Positions 964 to 9,046 of a stretch of DNA of 64,000 bases are shown in pieces. Each line of letters opens with the position of its first letter. The stretch's first letter is position 1. The notes below the pieces were generated by a model. That model was not told where the DNA came from and did no database searches. It saw only the letters and a program-made list of their open reading frames with translations. The DNA comes from a virus, in the IMG/VR virus record IMGVR_UViG_3300044716_000122, positions 1 to 64,000 of that record. One strand, 5' to 3'. A program made the translations under genes and the position numbers.

Positions 964-1185
964 ATGACAATAGAAACAGAATTAAAACTAGATTTACAAG
1001 GTTATACTCCTAAACAGTATGCTGCTCTTATTCTAAAAGATGACTTTGGCTACAGCCATGAGAAAGCAGGAATACAACTAGGTATTAGCCGTTATGCATT
1101 TGCCATACTCTATAAAAGAGCTAAAACTAAACCAGACACACGTTATGCTTACAGAAATATCTTACTACTGCGAAAAGCGACCTGA
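964..1185 (+). CDS. Hypothetical 73-aa protein with possible helix-turn-helix
   Basis: The 73-residue basic protein has a central stretch at about residues 31-55 (HEKAGIQLGISRYAFAILYK). It resembles the turn and recognition helix of sigma region 4 or resolvase-type HTH domains, which suggests DNA binding. It ends inside the following acetyltransferase gene. The resemblance is from reading only, and a non-specific small helical protein is the alternative. Confidence 0.5.
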   Translation: MTIETELKLDLQGYTPKQYAALILKDDFGYSHEKAGIQLGISRYAFAILYKRAKTKPDTRYAYRNILLLRKAT

Positions 1186-1627
1186 GTTTTTTGACTTTAT
1201 CTCAAACCACTTTAAAGTTGTATTTACAGAGAAATCCTTTAATGATTCCAACTTATCCGTGCATGCTATCCAAGATGGATATGATATAGCAGCTGTATTG
1301 TTAATGAAGAAGAAAAAAGTAGGATACCGTATTACCTTTATTCACGTAGCAGAGAAGTATCAAAGACAAAGAATAGGTAAGTTTCTTTTATCTTTAGCTC
1401 ATGAACATGCTTTAAGGGAAAATAAGAGCCCTGTCAATATAATCACTAGAGTTAAAGCAAATAACTTAACTTCGTTAAACTTCTTTATTAATGCAGGATA
1501 CACTTTTAAAACTTTTGAGTGTAGACATGAAACAATTGAGATTAACGGAGAGATTACAACAACAATTAAACCAGCTTATATATTAACTTATGACTTCAGA
1601 AACGAGATTATTGTTAAACAGGATTAA
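1145..1627 (+). CDS. GNAT-family N-acetyltransferase
   Basis: GNAT enzymes move an acetyl group from acetyl-CoA to an amine on a small molecule or protein. The core is clear: a beta-4-like strand (YRITFIHVAEKY), the acetyl-CoA loop QRQRIGKFLL matching the Q/R-x-x-G-x-G/A motif, then NLTSLNFFINAGYTF, the usual motif B with the N-x-x-S/A-x-x-x-Y/F-x-x-x-G-F pattern. ATG 1145 gives 160 residues and a 41-base overlap with the previous gene; an upstream ATG at 1094 would add 17 residues and a longer overlap. The substrate is unknown. Phage GNATs are proposed to modify host proteins or DNA-modifying machinery. Confidence 0.8.
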   Translation: MLTEISYYCEKRPEFFDFISNHFKVVFTEKSFNDSNLSVHAIQDGYDIAAVLLMKKKKVGYRITFIHVAEKYQRQRIGKFLLSLAHEHALRENKSPVNIITRVKANNLTSLNFFINAGYTFKTFECRHETIEINGEITTTIKPAYILTYDFRNEIIVKQD

Positions 1628-1991
1628 AACTCCTGATGGTACTATCTTGACTTCTTATAATAGACATGACTACCTAACCCATAAAGATGCTATAACCAAA
1701 GAGGTTCTTATGGTAGACGGAGGTAATGACTATATAAGAAGGCATGTAGGCACTTACGAAGAGCTAAGCGTCTATGACGATGGCTCACACTTAACTAGAA
1801 GGTCAGCTTTACATTGGGGTACTAGAGGTAAGGATAATAAACAACCCTTAACCTATAAACCAATCAAAGACCTAGATTCAGATCATATAGAAGCTATTCT
1901 AAGAACACAAACCCAGATTTCTGAGTTTTATAAACAAGTGTTTAAAGAAGAGTTGAAATATAGATTTGACGAAAAAGCAGAAAAGCTTTAA
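1590..1991 (+). CDS. Conserved phage hypothetical protein, 133 aa
   Basis: The 133-aa protein starts within the last codons of the GNAT gene. It contains a distinctive run, TSYNRHDYLTHKDAITKEV, then VDGGNDYIRR and SALHWGTRGKDNKQPLTY, followed by a helical tail (DHIEAILRTQTQISEFYKQVF). I have the impression of a widespread phage family with the same order of motifs (HDY, MVDGG, WGTRGK), but no biochemical role is known to me. Invariant-looking His, Asp and Gly residues could suggest a small enzymatic or nucleotide-binding protein; that is inference. Confidence 0.65.
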   Translation: MTSETRLLLNRIKTPDGTILTSYNRHDYLTHKDAITKEVLMVDGGNDYIRRHVGTYEELSVYDDGSHLTRRSALHWGTRGKDNKQPLTYKPIKDLDSDHIEAILRTQTQISEFYKQVFKEELKYRFDEKAEKL

Positions 1992-2000
1992 CTTTGAGAT

Positions 2001-2222
2001 ATGTCACCAGAAACTCAAGCCCTCGCCCTAGAGATTGAAATCAAAAGTTTAGGATTTCAAGTAGACAGAACAATGTACAGAAAGATTGCTAATCTTATGA
2101 TAGACAAGATCATACTAGAGTACGAAGATATGTCTAAGTACTTTGATGGAAATAACAAGTCTATTAACAATGCTGTGTTATACTGGAAACAAGTTAAACA
2201 ACACACTAACGATGAGGTGTAA
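2001..2222 (+). CDS. Hypothetical 73-aa helical protein
   Basis: This small charged protein is probably all-helical (ETQALALEIEIKSLGFQVDR, then YRKIANLMIDKIILEYEDM). No family is recognised. It sits in the same tightly packed early operon and overlaps the start of the following small membrane ORF by about 11 bases. Confidence 0.5.
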   Translation: MSPETQALALEIEIKSLGFQVDRTMYRKIANLMIDKIILEYEDMSKYFDGNNKSINNAVLYWKQVKQHTNDEV

Positions 2223-2376
2223 ACTTAGACTGATTAGATTTAAAATAAACAACACTAACTGTATGAGTAGCACTCAGTTCCTCGCCTACTCTCTTCTCTC
2301 TATTTCCCTTTTGTCCATAGTAATAGCAATGTTTGCTAATCTATGGAGTATCTTTGTGGAATGGAGTACACACTAA
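2212..2376 (+). CDS. Tiny membrane protein, about 54 aa
   Basis: Starting at ATG 2212 (an alternative is 2263), the product has a basic N-terminus (MRCKLRLIRFK) and one strongly hydrophobic segment, FLAYSLLSISLLSIVIAMFA, long enough to cross the membrane, then a short tail WSIFVEWSTH. The basic-in pattern would put the N-terminus in the cytoplasm. It is the second tiny membrane protein in this early region. A frame open by chance cannot be excluded. Confidence 0.4.
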   Translation: MRCKLRLIRFKINNTNCMSSTQFLAYSLLSISLLSIVIAMFANLWSIFVEWSTH

Positions 2377-2558
2377 GTGAAGAAGGTACAGTCATTGAAT
2401 TTCATCTGATTGTTAAGACAATGCACAAAAACGAAGATTACAAGTTTTACTCGGAAAAAGAACGAGATAAAGCACACAAGAAAGCCCTAGGAGAAAAGAA
2501 TTTATTACTCGTTCATTGTTACAAACACGACAGCGAAGAAATACCAGAAAACATTTAA
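2361..2558 (+). CDS. Hypothetical small protein, 65-71 aa
   Basis: This is the last gene before a terminator. ATG 2361 gives 65 residues; ATG 2343 would add six. The protein reads as two or three beta strands (MEYTLSEEGTVIEFHLIV) followed by a Lys/Glu-rich helix (YSEKERDKAHKKALGEK) and a strand (NLLLVHCYKHD). No family is recognised. Confidence 0.55.
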   Translation: MEYTLSEEGTVIEFHLIVKTMHKNEDYKFYSEKERDKAHKKALGEKNLLLVHCYKHDSEEIPENI

Positions 2559-2578
2559 ATTAAACTTAACTACACAAT

Positions 2579-2603
2579 AAAGCACCTCTAGGGGTGCTTT
2601 TTT
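2579..2603 (+). terminator. Rho-independent terminator ending the first early operon
   Basis: The 8-bp stem AAAGCACC/GGTGCTTT with a 6-base loop runs straight into six T residues. It ends the small-gene operon about 20 bases after its last stop codon and separates it from the 680-aa gene. Confidence 0.85.
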
Positions 2604-2637
2604 CATTTAAACTAAACTAAACTAACCTAAACAAAAT

Positions 2638-4680
2638 ATGCCAAACCAACAAATTATTGATGATCCATTCTCTTCGGAGTTTATGGAAACTGCAAACAAA
2701 GAAATGCAAACTATTCATGTATCTGCTGCTTCTATACCTAGAAGGAGAGTAAAGCAGGATAAGTTTGTTCTACACGCTGACTTAAAGAAAAGATTAATTA
2801 AACTTATTAGTACTAATGTACCTGAGCAAGTAAAAGAAATTGCTCAGCAAATTATAGATTTAACGCACGTACCTACTTTAAACAAGTATTGTAACTATCT
2901 AGGGTTATCTCAAGCTGACTATACTAAAATTTCTTATTTAGATGAAGATCGTAAGAATCGTTTAGATGGTCAAGTGGGTATTCAACACATTATTAAGCCT
3001 GGAACAGAAGCTGTATTTCACTACAGAAGAAATTACGTAAGTCATGAACCTGATCATGGTCACTATGATTGTAAACTAGTTTTAACTGCTAGACACCTAG
3101 GAGGAGATGTTTTTCCTATTAAGGGATTTTTACCTGAAAACAAAGAATTTACAGTAACTTCTTATCTATGGGAAAATGGCCAAAGAACACAGAATGAACA
3201 TGTTTTTAACTTTGAATTTAAAAATACCTTCTTGGAAAAAGATTCAAGGCCTCTAAGGATTAGAAACTCTAGGTTAGTGTCTAGTGCATCTTTTCATGTA
3301 GATCAATCAGGATACGAAGGTACTGGAGGATATAATCTATTAGGCGTAAGTTTTAATAAAACTGAAACTAAAGTTAAAGAAGTATGGAACTACAAACAAA
3401 GATACCACACTTCAGTAGGTAAGATTGTTCGTAGGTTATTTGGAGATACTTATAGCGATAGAGATATTACTGCTTTTGCAGAAGCCTATGCTAGTCTAAT
3501 TACTGTAAGCAATCCTTTGTATGATTTTGCTATTATTGACGGAGATGCTATCAAAGATGCCTATCACTTTGAGAACTATGCAGCTACATCAGGTACTCTA
3601 GGAAGCTCTTGTATGCGTCACAGATCATGTCAAAACTACTTTGACATCTATACTAAGTTTCCAGACAAAGTAAAGATGGCTGTGCTTAAAAGAGGTAGTA
3701 AGATTGCTGCTCGTTCTATCATGTGGAACATTGAAGGTAAGTTTATGTTTGACCGTATTTACTATACAACAAACGAAACACAAAACTTACTCAGGAACAC
3801 ATTAGAAGCTGCAGGATACTCTACTCTTTTCTCTGTAGGAGGAAACTACTCTATGGAGATAGATTTAGAAGGAATAACTAAGTTCCCTTATCTAGATACT
3901 TTATGTAGCTATGACCTAGCTAGAAAAATACTTACCAATGGTTGTATAGAAGGTCCTCGTTATGAGTTTAGAAACACTGGAGGTGATTACTATCAATATA
4001 ATAGTTATAATGTAGATGAAGATGAAGACAGTGACTATACCTGTAGTTGCTGTGATAATACTGTACATTATGATGATACTATTTACATTGATAGAGGTCA
4101 ATATCGTGATCTAAGAGTATGTGAAGATTGTGCTATTTATTCAGAGTCAACTGGAGAATATCATACCACTCAAGATGACACAGTTAGCACTTATCAAGAT
4201 GATTCTATTTTAACAGATGAAGGTATTAGACTAGTTGATAATACATGGGCACACCAAGATGATCCTGAACTTAGGCAATTTGAGAATGACTTTGGTTATT
4301 TTATCTTAGATCAACATGACTATCTAACTGATGGCAATGTATATTATCACCCAAATGATGAGAATAAGCCAGAAGATCTCTATGATAGCGAAGAAGTAGA
4401 AAGAAGAAACAAAGAAAGATTGTCTCAGATTATGGCAAATAACTCTCTATCAGGTACTCTTACTACTAATTCTACTAATTCTACTATTAACATCCATAGT
4501 AGTAGTAATGTTGGTATTGGAAATTTAGGTATTGGAACCTATCTACTAAATACAAATACTATTACTAGTACTACTAATTACTCGAATTTTTCTTTTGTAA
4601 ACGAAAATCAACCTGAATCAGAAGAAATAATAGAAGTAGAAGCGATGGTAGAAGACAATAATGAAGAACACTTAATTTAA
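2638..4680 (+). CDS. Conserved 680-aa phage protein with SCMR motif and zinc ribbon
   Basis: This large soluble protein opens a new unit after the terminator, behind an (AAACT)n-type leader. Its middle contains the stretch SGTLGSSCMRHRSCQNYFDI, then GSKIAARSIMWN and FMFDRIYYTT. I recall similar cysteine/arginine blocks in other large phage proteins of unknown function. Near residues 460-500 is a treble-clef or ribbon-like Cys set (CSCC and, about 25 residues later, CEDC), likely binding zinc. The C-terminal part becomes acidic and then a Ser/Thr/Asn/Gly low-complexity tail (about residues 600-650), built from ACT/AGT triplets. A role in replication, transcription or RNA handling is plausible only from neighbours. 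Confidence 0.75.
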   Translation: MPNQQIIDDPFSSEFMETANKEMQTIHVSAASIPRRRVKQDKFVLHADLKKRLIKLISTNVPEQVKEIAQQIIDLTHVPTLNKYCNYLGLSQADYTKISYLDEDRKNRLDGQVGIQHIIKPGTEAVFHYRRNYVSHEPDHGHYDCKLVLTARHLGGDVFPIKGFLPENKEFTVTSYLWENGQRTQNEHVFNFEFKNTFLEKDSRPLRIRNSRLVSSASFHVDQSGYEGTGGYNLLGVSFNKTETKVKEVWNYKQRYHTSVGKIVRRLFGDTYSDRDITAFAEAYASLITVSNPLYDFAIIDGDAIKDAYHFENYAATSGTLGSSCMRHRSCQNYFDIYTKFPDKVKMAVLKRGSKIAARSIMWNIEGKFMFDRIYYTTNETQNLLRNTLEAAGYSTLFSVGGNYSMEIDLEGITKFPYLDTLCSYDLARKILTNGCIEGPRYEFRNTGGDYYQYNSYNVDEDEDSDYTCSCCDNTVHYDDTIYIDRGQYRDLRVCEDCAIYSESTGEYHTTQDDTVSTYQDDSILTDEGIRLVDNTWAHQDDPELRQFENDFGYFILDQHDYLTDGNVYYHPNDENKPEDLYDSEEVERRNKERLSQIMANNSLSGTLTTNSTNSTINIHSSSNVGIGNLGIGTYLLNTNTITSTTNYSNFSFVNENQPESEEIIEVEAMVEDNNEEHLI

Positions 4681-4691
4681 AAAAACAAAAA

Positions 4692-6113
4692 ATGACTTAT
4701 AAATATAAAAGCAAAGAACTAGGTGAACTAGATGATACATTAAAAGGAAATTTCCCTGTAGACTTTGATCTACTGTTTGATATTATGTATCAACAAAGCC
4801 CCACCTACCAGCCAGAGATGGAGAAACTTAAAAAGAATTGGCTTATAAGTCTTATTTCTCAGATAGACGGAGTAACAGTAGAAGAGAAAGGCGGTAATAT
4901 CTATTGCACAAAAGGAGAAGCCGAGTATTATCCTACTGTAGTAGCTCACTATGACACAGCTCAAGACTACCATGTAGGCATGCGTATCTTTAAGACAGAT
5001 AAGTGGATTTTCGGCTTTGATGACTTCAGAGGCGAACAATGTGGCTTAGGTCTCGATGACTCTGTAGGTGTATGCTTTGCTATTCAGATGCTTAAGATGA
5101 TGCCTGTATGTAAGGTATTTTTGCCTTATGGTGAGGAAAGAGGTCTAGTAGGTACTAACTGTTGTGATATGTCTTTCTTTGACAACTCTCTAGTAGTTAC
5201 TCAGCTAGATCGTAGATCTTATACAACAGACTTCATCCAGTATACTAACGGGTATCAAGTGTGGAATCCTGAACATCTTACCCTTATTGAACCTTTGATG
5301 AACAAATATGGATACAAGCCTGCTTCAGGTACAGCTACTGACGTAGGTGGACTTCGTAGAAGGGGACTTAAAGTTTCTTCTCACAACTTATCTTGTGGTT
5401 ACTTTAACGAGCATGGAGATACTGAGGTAGCTAGTGTTAATCTAATGATCAACGCTTTTAGCTTTGCTTATGAGATGCTTACAATGTTGGCTGAAAGAAA
5501 CATTCCACTCGAATTTCCTCTTCCTTCTTTTGACCTTCCTAAGCATTCTGGTAAAAAGTCACATAGTAGTGAGTCTCATCTAGGCTTAGGTGCTAAGCAA
5601 ATTAGCATGTGGGACAGCTATGATGACTATTACTATGATCAGGTTAAGGGAGACTTTGTAAAAACAGAAGATAAAACAAAAGATCCCTTCTATTGGGAAG
5701 ATGATGGGAAGACCTCTAAAGACGTTAAATCTGTTGAAGATGACATGGATGACCTTGCAGCCTATGAAATGTACAATGAATGGGTTATGAGTGTTTATCC
5801 TGAGATGTCTTTACCTGCACATAGGAAAGAACTTACTCACCTCTCTCAGTACTACTGTGCAGATGGAGTAGACTTTAAAGTAAAAGACCTATCCTCTACA
5901 ACAGTAGATGAATCTCTTATGGATGAAGGTATATGTCCTATTTGTTTAGGACATGCTATACAAATCACGAATGACTTGTTACTTGAGACTGTTTGTACAG
6001 ATTGTGAAAGTGTTTTTAACATACCCAAAGACGTATTAGAGGCATATGAGTATGACTTTCATCAAGTGTGGACTGGTAAGAAAGATTTCTTAGAGATTAA
6101 GGGGTTAGCTTAG
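4692..6113 (+). CDS. M20/M28-like zinc aminopeptidase with C-terminal zinc ribbon
   Basis: The order of metal ligands of di-zinc M20/M28/M42 exopeptidases is visible: AHYDT (His86, Asp88), GLDDSVG (Asp122/123), YGEERG (Glu148/149), QLDRR (Asp173) and NEHGDTE (His241). These enzymes remove amino acids from peptides or hydrolyse related amides. Only about 65 residues separate Asp173 from His241, so the large M20 dimerisation domain is absent and the fold is closer to the compact M28 type. After a charged linker, Cys415/418 and Cys435/438 form a zinc ribbon, unusual for a peptidase. There is no signal peptide, so it probably acts in the cytoplasm. The substrate is unknown. Confidence 0.8.
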   Translation: MTYKYKSKELGELDDTLKGNFPVDFDLLFDIMYQQSPTYQPEMEKLKKNWLISLISQIDGVTVEEKGGNIYCTKGEAEYYPTVVAHYDTAQDYHVGMRIFKTDKWIFGFDDFRGEQCGLGLDDSVGVCFAIQMLKMMPVCKVFLPYGEERGLVGTNCCDMSFFDNSLVVTQLDRRSYTTDFIQYTNGYQVWNPEHLTLIEPLMNKYGYKPASGTATDVGGLRRRGLKVSSHNLSCGYFNEHGDTEVASVNLMINAFSFAYEMLTMLAERNIPLEFPLPSFDLPKHSGKKSHSSESHLGLGAKQISMWDSYDDYYYDQVKGDFVKTEDKTKDPFYWEDDGKTSKDVKSVEDDMDDLAAYEMYNEWVMSVYPEMSLPAHRKELTHLSQYYCADGVDFKVKDLSSTTVDESLMDEGICPICLGHAIQITNDLLLETVCTDCESVFNIPKDVLEAYEYDFHQVWTGKKDFLEIKGLA

Positions 6114-6121
6114 TCTACTCC

Positions 6122-6151
6122 TTAATCGTAAATCTACAATTAAACGATTAA
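6122..6151 (+). other. Inverted repeat TTAATCGT...ACGATTAA
   Basis: A perfect 8-bp inverted repeat with a 14-base spacer lies in the 53-base gap between the peptidase gene and the next ORF. It is AT-rich and not followed by T residues on the plus strand, so it is a poor terminator. An operator or mRNA-stabilising hairpin is equally possible. Confidence 0.35.
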
Positions 6152-6166
6152 AATCAACTAAATTTT

Positions 6167-6436
6167 ATGGAAAATGAATATTATGGAGATAGTCTGGAAT
6201 CAACCCCAGACTATCTTTTTATGAAAAAAATGTGGATGGAAGACTTGGAAAAAGTTGAAGAATCCGTTATCTTTGTAGACCCGCCTAAGTTTAATAAAGA
6301 GAGATTATTCAAAGGCATAAACGTAATTTTAACCACAACAGAAAATGAAGAAAACATTCTACGAAGTCCTATGGGAACTAGCAGTCAAAGAGAAAATGAT
6401 AGACAAGTGGATTTACGAAGACAAACTTCTGAATAA
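6167..6436 (+). CDS. Hypothetical 89-aa protein overlapping the next gene
   Basis: The acidic 89-aa protein has a first part (residues 1-60) that looks protein-like: DYLFMKKMWMEDLEKVEES, then VIFVDPPKFNKERLF. Its last 30 residues (RSPMGTSSQRENDRQVDL and on) read like a shadow of the following gene's frame. The overlap of 92 bases is unusually long for this genome. Either both genes are real, or the downstream gene starts later (for example ATG 6396). No family is recognised. Confidence 0.5.
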   Translation: MENEYYGDSLESTPDYLFMKKMWMEDLEKVEESVIFVDPPKFNKERLFKGINVILTTTENEENILRSPMGTSSQRENDRQVDLRRQTSE

Positions 6437-6893
6437 TGGAACCACTTTTAGTTGGACACCTAAAGCACTTGAAGAACTTGACATAAGTGAAGTAATATCT
6501 GCACTTAAAGTTGCTAGACATTCTGATCCTATTAAAGTAATTGCAAATCCAACACCACAACCTGAAATACCTATCACATGGGTAACAGAGTTTATCGCTA
6601 AGTTTAGTGCAAAGAACATAGGAGTATCAGGAAAGACTACTGACAAGGTGAGTGTGGTTAAACGATTGATTAAATTCTTAGCAGAGTACGATTACACTCT
6701 AGATGAAATAGCCAAGGCTACTGACCTTTACATAGATACCTTGAAAGGACAAGGATCTATTAGGTATATCAGAGAGTGTGGGTACTTTATCTCTAAGAAG
6801 ATTGATGGAGTAGAGCAAAGCGACTTAGCTAAGTGGTGTGAAGAGTTAAAGAATGGTACTGGACCTGCTTACAATAGCCATCAAATTCTATAA
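6345..6893 (+). CDS. Putative helicase loader or helicase-associated protein
   Basis: The 182-aa, mostly helical protein lies two bases upstream of the DnaB-like helicase gene, which is where phages often keep helicase loaders or a split DnaB N-terminal domain. The C-terminal half (TLDEIAKATDLYIDTLKGQG, then YIRECGYFISKKI and LAKWCEELKNG) resembles regions I associate with phage replication-initiation (DnaD/loader-like) proteins. I see no Walker motif, so it is not a DnaC-type ATPase. The loader role is inferred from context and a weak resemblance. Confidence 0.55.
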   Translation: MKKTFYEVLWELAVKEKMIDKWIYEDKLLNNGTTFSWTPKALEELDISEVISALKVARHSDPIKVIANPTPQPEIPITWVTEFIAKFSAKNIGVSGKTTDKVSVVKRLIKFLAEYDYTLDEIAKATDLYIDTLKGQGSIRYIRECGYFISKKIDGVEQSDLAKWCEELKNGTGPAYNSHQIL

Positions 6894-6895
6894 AG

Positions 6896-8002
6896 ATGAA
6901 CTTTGAAAGTATAATTTCCCAAATAGAAAGAAATAAGATAATCAAAGAAGCAGGAGGGATAACATCTATTGCTCCTCCCTTTCCTAGATTAGCTCAGTAT
7001 TATGGAGGATTTACTAAAGGTTCTATTACTTGTATTACTGCTGCATCAGGTGTAGGTAAGTCAAAGTTTGCAAAATACATGACTATCGTAAACATCTACA
7101 AAGCAACAAGAAATACAGAAATTACTCCTAAGATATTTTATTTTGCTTTAGAAGAAAGTGCTACTGACTTTTGGCTATCTTTTATCTCTATTTATTTATA
7201 TCAGAATCACAACATTACTGTTACTGTACAGCAATTAAAATCTATAGGAAACTATAGTGTAAGTTCTGAGTTAATGACTAAGATAAGAGCTGCAGAAACC
7301 TTTATTACTAATTTACAAAACATTGTAGATGTTATAGATTATATAAGGAATCCTACAGGTATAGCTAAGTACGTAAAATCGTACTTCGATAATCCAGATG
7401 TAGGAGAAAACATCTACAAAGACTTAGATGATGGTAGAAGAATTACTACAGGCTACAGATACAGATCTGAAGATCATTGGGTATTCTTTGTACTAGACCA
7501 CATTAGTCTTTTATCTAACGAGATAGCTCCTGACACTAAGATGAAGTTAAGTTCCTATCAGACTTTTGACTTTATGATTAAGGATTATGTATTAGACGTC
7601 TTTTCTAAGCGATACAAGATGGCTAGTATTATTGTCCATCAACAGACTCCTGCATCAGAAAAGCAAACCTACACCTACAAGGGACAGTTAATGGAAGAGA
7701 AGCTAGAACCTTCTATGGAAGAACTCCACATTAACAAAGGTGTACACCAAGACTACGAAGTAGTTCTAGGTTTATTTAGTCCAACAAGATATAACATAGC
7801 AGTTCATAATGGCTATGATGTAGCATTACTCGGTAACAAATACCGTTCTCTTAAATTCCTTAAAGATCGTTACTATGGCTTAGAAAATTCAAGCGTAGGA
7901 CTTTACTTTAATGGAGCTAACGGAAAGTTTGACGAGTTACCAAAGCCTGAAGAGATGAATAATCCTGTAGGTAATTATTATGAAAAGTATTTAAAAATGT
8001 AA
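6896..8002 (+). CDS. DnaB-like replicative helicase core (RecA-fold ATPase)
   Basis: The protein has the architecture of a DnaB/SF4 helicase C-terminal domain. Walker A is TAASGVGKSKFAK (Lys55, Ser56). It is followed by the catalytic glutamate block FYFALEES, Walker B FFVLDH (about residue 200), and VHQQTP (about 250) at the position of the sensor motif that touches DNA. At 368 aa it is shorter than a bacterial DnaB and lacks the N-terminal primase-interaction domain, which the 182-aa neighbour may replace. It would unwind the phage replication fork together with the primase and DNA polymerase downstream. Confidence 0.85.
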   Translation: MNFESIISQIERNKIIKEAGGITSIAPPFPRLAQYYGGFTKGSITCITAASGVGKSKFAKYMTIVNIYKATRNTEITPKIFYFALEESATDFWLSFISIYLYQNHNITVTVQQLKSIGNYSVSSELMTKIRAAETFITNLQNIVDVIDYIRNPTGIAKYVKSYFDNPDVGENIYKDLDDGRRITTGYRYRSEDHWVFFVLDHISLLSNEIAPDTKMKLSSYQTFDFMIKDYVLDVFSKRYKMASIIVHQQTPASEKQTYTYKGQLMEEKLEPSMEELHINKGVHQDYEVVLGLFSPTRYNIAVHNGYDVALLGNKYRSLKFLKDRYYGLENSSVGLYFNGANGKFDELPKPEEMNNPVGNYYEKYLKM

Positions 8003-8008
8003 AAGCCT

Positions 8009-8329
8009 ATGAATAAAAAAGAAGATTTTAGTCCTGAATTAACCCAAGTACTCACTCATATGTGTAATATGATTGAAGTAAACTACGATGACGTAGATTT
8101 TAATTCCCCTACGTGGTATTGGGACCATACCTGGACAATGGCTAAGGAAGAAGAATTTATAGATTGGCTAGCTAAACTACTTTATGACAACACTAAAGTA
8201 AGAAAAGCAATCTTAAGTTACCCTGCTAAAGATAAAAAGCGTTGTCAAGCAGGAGCAAGATTCTTTGCTTCTATGTACGGATGGAAAATAATAACAGAAG
8301 ATTTAGATAAATTACTAGAGACAAAATAA
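8009..8329 (+). CDS. Conserved small phage protein, 106 aa
   Basis: The 106-aa protein contains a tryptophan-rich centre (PTWYWDHTWTMAKEEEFIDW, then LAKLLYDNTKV) and a C-terminal segment ending in FFASMYGWKII. Similar short proteins with a HTWT...EEEF...YGWK signature occur next to replication genes of other phages, but I know of no function. It is translated between the helicase and the Sak4-like ATPase and is probably part of the replication operon. Confidence 0.65.
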   Translation: MNKKEDFSPELTQVLTHMCNMIEVNYDDVDFNSPTWYWDHTWTMAKEEEFIDWLAKLLYDNTKVRKAILSYPAKDKKRCQAGARFFASMYGWKIITEDLDKLLETK

Positions 8330-8347
8330 ACAAAACAAACTAACTAT

Positions 8348-9046
8348 ATGTCAAGCAAACTAATCGCTATCGTAGGTCCTTCAGGTACTGGTAAATCCAC
8401 AGCTGTAAGGACTTTAGACCCAAAAGAAACATTTATTATTAATGTAGCAAGGAAAGAATTGCCTTTCAAAGGAGCAGAAAAGCTTTACAATCTTGAATCT
8501 AAGAATTACATGGAGGTAGATGATATTAATCAAATCACCGCATTGTTACAACAGATCAGCGAGAAAGCTCCTCACATCAAAAACATCATCATGGATGATG
8601 CTATCTACTCTATGTCTTTTCTTATGATGAGAAAAGCCAATGAGATTGGTTTTGGTAAATTTGTTACTCTTGCAAAAGATGTAACCAATATGCTTACTAG
8701 TGCCCGTAAACTTCGTAATGACCTTAAAGTATTCTACATCACTCACTCAGAGAACATTGAAGATGATGGACATATCGTAGGTCAGAAGATTAAAACAATC
8801 GGTAAAGCACTAGACAACCAAATCGTACTAGAAGGATTGTTTACTATCTGTCTTTATACTCACGTAGGTGAAGATAAAGAAGAGAAAGCAACTTATCAGT
8901 TTGTAACTAATCGTTTTAGAAACTACCCTGCTAAAAGTCCTATGGATATGTTTGCAGAAACTCTTATCCCTAACGACTTACAAGTAGTATGTGATACAAT
9001 AGATCGTTATTATGCAGAAGAAACACCAGTAAAAGATAAAAAATAA
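8348..9046 (+). CDS. Sak4-like AAA_24 recombination ATPase
   Basis: This P-loop ATPase has Walker A IVGPSGTGKSTA (residues 8-19), Walker B-like NIIMDDA at about residues 79-85, a VFYITHSE sensor block and a late YPAKSPMDMF segment, all typical of the phage AAA_24/Sak4 family. Sak4 proteins are small RecA-like ATPases of about 220-240 aa that anneal single-stranded DNA with an SSB partner; at 232 aa the length fits. The SSB candidate follows immediately, which supports the assignment. An alternative is a generic phage nucleoside-triphosphate-binding protein. Confidence 0.7.
   Translation: MSSKLIAIVGPSGTGKSTAVRTLDPKETFIINVARKELPFKGAEKLYNLESKNYMEVDDINQITALLQQISEKAPHIKNIIMDDAIYSMSFLMMRKANEIGFGKFVTLAKDVTNMLTSARKLRNDLKVFYITHSENIEDDGHIVGQKIKTIGKALDNQIVLEGLFTICLYTHVGEDKEEKATYQFVTNRFRNYPAKSPMDMFAETLIPNDLQVVCDTIDRYYAEETPVKDKK

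Follow-up and report, generated by a model that had tools for sequence, protein, structure and literature searches.

A compact phage peptidase with a zinc-ribbon tail and its conserved, probably GNAT-like partner

Genes annotated as 'peptidase' and grouped in the phage family PHROG 4191 include those of phi38:1 (gp038), KP34 (gp11) and PPWS1 (gp07). We analysed a member of this family in a 64,000-nucleotide (nt) stretch of viral DNA, positions 1 to 64,000 of IMG/VR record IMGVR_UViG_3300044716_000122 (hereafter the window). Its gene is an intact open reading frame (ORF) of 473 residues at 4692..6113 on the plus strand, as are all window features given below, and the PHROG 4191 profile covers residues 26-255 of the product (E 2.9e-26). 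The window protein has the same catalytic domain, the same ligand order and the same neighbouring partner gene as the three named proteins, but it is extended at the N-terminus and also carries a long acidic linker and a C4 zinc ribbon, the last of which is lacking in PPWS1 and Jenst. Among described enzymes, Peptidase T (PepT) and Xaa-His dipeptidase of family M20B (3gb0, 1fno, 2qyv) fit residues 19-271 with Z 25.4 to 26.8 and root-mean-square deviation (rmsd) 2.4 to 2.5; the window protein differs from them in having no lid/dimerisation domain, and the identity is 16-18%. The M42 tetrahedral aminopeptidases (MJ0555, PhTET) give the best sequence-profile match (E 7.6e-7) and Pfam M42 matches 55 of 63 family members, but at E 0.01 not the window protein.

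The partner gene is a 680-residue ORF at 2638..4680, and we call its product SCM after its S-C-M motif. For the SCM model, Foldseek ranks FemX, MprF, ATE1 and the Leu/Phe-tRNA transferases near the top, but the scores are weak (E 0.013 or worse) and there is no sequence similarity. Rac of phiKMV-like phages is a phage GNAT-type protein in whose setting proteolysis follows. In the available part of PMC7552054, Rac is described as a GNAT that acts through proteolysis and has acetyl-CoA (CoA, coenzyme A) pocket residues; a phage-encoded protease working with it is not known. SCM differs in lacking the CoA loop motif, and the Rac gene is located downstream of the phage RNA polymerase gene. In the part of a jumbo-phage review open to us (PMC7824862), phage GNATs and ATP-grasp ligases are predicted to modify host proteins. 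Our search of the open-licence literature found no study of the peptidase-SCM pair and no function for the peptidase, and the accessible portion of PMC9145550 held nothing relevant to the pair.

The upstream gene, which a sequence-only reading of the peptidase had passed over, is a conserved partner. In the window, 11 nt separate its stop from the start of the peptidase ORF, and a record-wide search found a single copy of each gene in the 95,045-base virus record. SCM homologues were sought by iterated hidden Markov models (HMMs) in 201 peptidase-bearing viral sources (200 loci and the window; L053, which is the window itself again, was excluded, and L056 and L062 are one virus in two collections). 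An SCM ORF was present in 142 of them, on the same strand every time: 116 were adjacent to the peptidase (-115 to +73 nt between stop-to-stop ORFs) and 26 were located 1.8-4.9 kb downstream. In the human gut contig MT840031 (L057), SCM adjoins the peptidase though the iterated HMM missed it; homologues also adjoin the peptidase in PPWS1 (L058) and lie just downstream of it in phi38:1 (L054). When one locus was taken for each of 57 peptidase clusters, SCM was found within 3 kb in 40 of these lineages, and the next commonest neighbour family in 13.

The pairing extends to other kinds of source. SCM lies just upstream in 30 of 36 peptidase loci on bacterial genome contigs, mostly Bacteroidales. 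These loci look like mobile elements, because in the flanks tested DUF3871 is accompanied by a serine resolvase (L202, L205) or an integrase (L217). Among five Autographiviridae regions opened, four show SCM followed immediately by the annotated peptidase, with the primase further on (KP34 gp10-gp11, PhiM1_09-_10, Minorna gp49-gp48 and PPWS1 gp06-gp07); the fifth, C171, does not have this arrangement. The available part of PMC6115819 lists PhiM1_09 as 'hypothetical' and PhiM1_10 as 'putative peptidase', both among conserved proteins. In a reverse test seeded with SCM, 40 of 67 new viral loci held the peptidase, nearly always adjacent. The peptidase is thus mostly accompanied by SCM, and SCM is sometimes alone or multiplied. 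The conserved close pairing suggests an early two-protein tool of infection, and on balance we lean towards the compact di-zinc exopeptidase being the hydrolytic half of an early two-gene module with the GNAT-like SCM.

The catalytic half of this pair is well defined. We aligned 63 diverse peptidase sequences from loci fetched from viral contigs, as cluster representatives under length limits (alignment A5). The clan MH order HxD, D, EE, D/E, H is found with all seven residues in 63/63 rows; in the window they span 4947..5414 and comprise the ligands H86 (4947-4949), D122 (5055-5057), E149 (with E148 at 5133-5138), D173 (5208-5210) and H241 (5412-5414) and the catalytic residues D88 (4953-4955) and E148. 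N232, G236, Y237 and E245 are likewise invariant in all 63. Because D173 and H241 are only 65-68 residues apart in every row, no lid or dimerisation domain is inserted there, between the fourth and fifth ligands, where M20 enzymes proper carry it. The sequence-only reading had pointed out both the complete di-zinc ligand set and the missing M20 dimerisation domain, and both hold in all 63 rows. Since all ligands are invariant, the peptidase is probably active as an enzyme.

An AlphaFold2 model built from the 63 rows (mean pLDDT 76.6, pTM 0.63) was confident over approximately residues 21-270 and fair over the ribbon. The catalytic domain, of M20/M42 type and lid-less, occupies residues 19-271 (4746..5504), and over this range the model aligns with the catalytic domains of PepT, carboxypeptidase G2 (CPG2) and M42 enzymes. 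Among solved folds, PepT 3gb0 and Xaa-His dipeptidase 2qyv score highest, each with Z 26.8 and rmsd 2.4 over 237 aligned residues; M42, CPG2 and DapE entries come next, and the matches listed include 50 clan MH entries at Z 21.6 to 26.8. By sequence, the A5 profile matched PepT at E 3.5e-6, after MJ0555, in whose match the HxD, DD, EE and final-H motifs stand in register with the window family. From the fold, an aminopeptidase activity would be expected.

Family models place the window protein less sharply. At E 0.01 it matched no Pfam family, and neither Pfam M42 nor Pfam M28 matched it above the curated cut-off; the relatives in PPWS1 and Jenst do match M28. At E 0.01 or better, Pfam M42, M28 and M20 match 55, 25 and 21 of the 63 aligned members, and distant relatives match PepT-like, M28 or M42 models of NCBIfam and Pfam. 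NCBIfam and Pfam gave nothing decisive for either window protein, peptidase or partner, whole-protein phmmer against PDB sequences returned chance matches to antibody chains only (E 0.22 or worse), and a PADLOC scan of eight proteins assigned a family to none. The window enzyme is a minimal clan MH catalytic domain and not a canonical member of M20, M28 or M42; it represents a ribbon-bearing branch of the known family PHROG 4191, not a new enzyme fold.

The nearest folds, PepT and M42, are general peptide-trimming enzymes, and this agrees with a simpler account in which a stand-alone scavenging aminopeptidase completes the degradation of host peptides and feeds phage protein synthesis, with a functionally unrelated neighbour. 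We regard this account as possible and as the strongest of the competing ones, though still rather unlikely: a scavenger needs neither a partner nor a ribbon, yet one unrelated-looking gene stays adjacent to the peptidase across Bacteroidota phages, Bacteroidales elements and Autographiviridae.

The nature of that neighbour bears on the remaining alternatives. A model of SCM built from 55 rows had a confident core (mean pLDDT 77.4 and pTM 0.40 for the model), which in the window corresponds to residues 295-407 (3520..3858), with S324-C325-M326 at 3607-3615. Foldseek placed FemX first among solved structures (E 0.013, prob 0.99), and its best 50 also included RimI, MprF, ATE1, Leu/Phe-tRNA transferase and an aminoacyl-tRNA-dependent peptide synthase. 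VIA ranked ordinary GNATs first, with VipF at the highest Z (8.9, rmsd 2.6, 91 aligned), so that aminoacyl-tRNA transferases and ordinary GNATs cannot be told apart by these searches. The top fold rows were exclusively of GNAT type. S324, C325, M326, R359, W363, D372, Y375, P417 and D420 are invariant in 43/43 sequences of the SCM core alignment A6, which holds 43 of 55 core ranges (left out were L012, L136 and L068, together with nine ranges in which SCM lies far from the peptidase or is a close duplicate); a further alignment, A4, consists of cluster representatives under length limits. We conclude with moderate confidence that the SCM core is GNAT-like.

The SCM copies of Autographiviridae keep the SCM and PY-D motifs and an arginine and lose the W and the first D of DRIY. 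By profile they join the others weakly (hhalign probability 39, E 3e-4), and fold matches in BFVD to proteins of Nobby, KpV48, Buco and DE17 were obtained at E 7e-10 to 3e-8; their kinship is supported by the shared motifs and these fold matches. A scan of SCM with Pfam gave no relevant recurring family. We abandoned the idea that the SCM motif marks a cysteine protease, as the model is GNAT-like and no invariant His is paired with C325. Mom also has a GNAT fold, and a DNA-modification reading taken from this likeness was set aside, nothing having pointed to DNA modification. The partner also has a cysteine cluster, CSCC...CEDC, C-terminal to the GNAT-like core.

GNAT acetyltransferases carry the CoA-loop motif [QR]xxGx[GA] after strand 4, and this motif was absent in 55/55 SCM rows. 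CoA-dependent acetylation by SCM would thus be less likely than the use of another acyl donor. In the two-gene module that we favour, a soluble, active exopeptidase would consist of the M20B/M42-type catalytic domain, the flexible acidic linker and the C4 ribbon. The GNAT-like core of SCM would probably form or recognise a bond between an amine and an acyl or aminoacyl group on a target belonging to the host or the phage; its C-terminal beta repeats would probably select this target, and the peptidase would then take off a terminal residue or break the amide. Labour would be divided early in infection, with modification or recognition left to SCM, hydrolysis to the peptidase and binding to the ribbon and linker; both the joint action and the direction of the reaction are what we infer, as is a role in host takeover. 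The peptidase is common in phages. With a partner linked to it, an orphan annotation becomes a system of two genes that can be put to the test, for instance on gp48 and gp49 of the coliphage Minorna. This conserved module most deserves following up.

A more specific variant is that the genes make up a reversible aminoacyl or peptide tagging system widespread in phages and mobile elements. SCM, without a CoA loop, might load selected proteins with amino acids taken, for instance, from aminoacyl-tRNA, and the ribbon-bearing peptidase, which has no lid, might remove or edit the tag. In this way the phage would alter the N-termini or the stability of proteins at an early stage of infection, and where a phage has SCM genes in tandem, several targets would receive a tag. 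We consider this variant a long shot. If the partner does transfer amino acids, it would represent a new phage route to protein modification.

Also unlikely is a Rac-like shut-off of the host by mark and cut, in which SCM would acylate a host protein, such as a protease partner or a subunit of RNA polymerase, and proteolysis would follow. The pair does sit in the early region, but Rac is described as having acetyl-CoA pocket residues, and the CoA-loop motif is absent in all 55 SCM rows. In addition, clan MH enzymes are, to our knowledge, exopeptidases, and an internal cut by such an enzyme is unlikely.

Several observations weigh against the two-gene module. First, the peptidase occurs without a detectable SCM. 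Among the 59 sources with no SCM HMM match, only L091 offers at least 2 kb upstream and at least 5 kb downstream, and it has no SCM nearby, also when TGA is read as Trp; none was detected near the peptidase of Jenst (L059), which is close to these flank limits (2 kb/5 kb), nor near six of the 36 genome loci (L229, L232, L233, L235, L236 and L237). Second, SCM occurs without the peptidase: 27 of the 67 SCM-seeded loci have none in the locus, and in the 26 records behind them it was found elsewhere in just nine. The remaining peptidase-less records include several short fragments and some long ones (up to 137 kb). Third, the GNAT-type fold rows are weak, with FemX the best by Foldseek, and the SCM core profile found no match at E 10 among PDB sequences, to any GNAT or FemX-type protein or otherwise. 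Finally, adjacency may equally reflect co-regulation of the two genes with no joint chemistry.

SCM genes are multiplied in some phages. L301 has five in a row on one strand (1172-8665), and L258, L266, L278, L285, L286 and L302 have two each. That the peptidase trims SCM itself or another phage protein, SCM being a substrate and not a fellow enzyme, is improbable: the tight adjacency of the genes and the tandem copies would suit such maturation, but SCM is conserved in its core motifs and not at its N-terminus, and a search of the 54-kb record that contains L301 yielded no peptidase. The huge phages carry large SCM families, because 8, 15 and 13 SCM-like places were seen in LR745206, LR756501 and LR756504 (634-735 kb). 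In another IMG/VR contig (L136 1580-7071), the SCM-peptidase pair is preceded by a subtilase-family gene (Pfam S8).

Behind the catalytic domain, the window protein continues with an acidic linker (residues 272-414, 5505..5933), mostly of low model confidence, and a C4 zinc ribbon core from C415 to C438 (5934..6005). The ribbon is made of two CxxC pairs, CPIC at 415 and CTDC at 435 (C415, C418, C435 and C438), and all four cysteines are in register in 60/63 rows of A5. Pfam Zn_Ribbon_TF (TFIIB-type) matched residues 414-442 below threshold (E 0.016, 15.2 bits against a curated cut-off of 29). In a cruder pattern count, with one peptidase ORF of >300 residues per viral source, a C-terminal ribbon was found in 178/186 viral sources and 3/28 genome contigs; the viral set is biased toward ribbon-bearing relatives because it was fetched with ribbon-bearing queries. 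The ribbon is missing in PPWS1, Jenst, MT840031 and most Bacteroidales copies, and it is characteristic of the branch to which the window protein belongs, as it is of many phage peptidases related to it. Because ribbon-less relatives (PPWS1 and most Bacteroidales loci) retain the same SCM partner, the pairing of the genes does not depend on the ribbon.

The sequence-only reading had described the C4 ribbon and named its conservation in homologues beforehand as decisive, and the alignment bears it out. The other condition that it named, ligands converging in a model, was addressed indirectly, by the matching fold and the motifs aligned with MJ0555. It was also right to place the gene as the last large one before the replication operon: a DnaB-like helicase gene follows at 6896, and Sak4-like and primase PHROG matches are also found downstream. 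Its interpretation stands in part: the compact metallo-exopeptidase with a conserved ribbon tail agrees with the alignment and the fold, whereas the 'modified nucleotide amide' proposed as a target found no support in any analysis. The ribbon may direct the enzyme to a target, as that reading proposed.

A full-length peptidase ORF was found in most of 52 related viral loci. In five relatives the gene is interrupted at one of two sites, both uninterrupted in the window copy. L044, L050 and L051 are split at codon 152 (5145..5147 in the window), right behind the catalytic EE pair, and L048 and L049 at codons 234-235 (5391..5396), between S234 and C235. The introns lie at ~4908-6005 in L044, ~4903-6000 in L050 and L051, and ~6712-7900 in L048 and L049, and in each of the five Rfam detects a group I intron, with 74.7-96.8 bits against a gathering score of 50. 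A sixth locus tested, L052, had no Rfam group I intron, and the window had no Rfam match. Both insert ORFs tested match LAGLIDADG families, and junctions set by eye, with T before the insert and G at its end, restore GEERG-LVG and NLS-CGY. Two intron sites, both in active-site motifs, fit homing elements that target unchangeable codons.

An in-frame TGA was seen at the same place, after DDKVG, in five relatives (L080 6298-6300, L091 6298-6300, L108 6310-6312, L123 2103-2105 and L201 1253-1255), and in that phage lineage the codon may stand for an amino acid. As for the spread of the family, 389 of 50,697 phage records matched the PPWS1 copy of the peptidase, and Klebsiella phages account for 230 of the 389. 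The huge phage LR756504 (L056 5911-9398) has two different PHROG 4191 peptidases in tandem, with a ribbon in the first only. Elsewhere in the window, DNA polymerase and virion PHROG matches are consistent with a phage, and a GNAT acetyltransferase gene distinct from the partner, over the Pfam cut-off (E 5.1e-6), lies in the same early region at 1094-1627.
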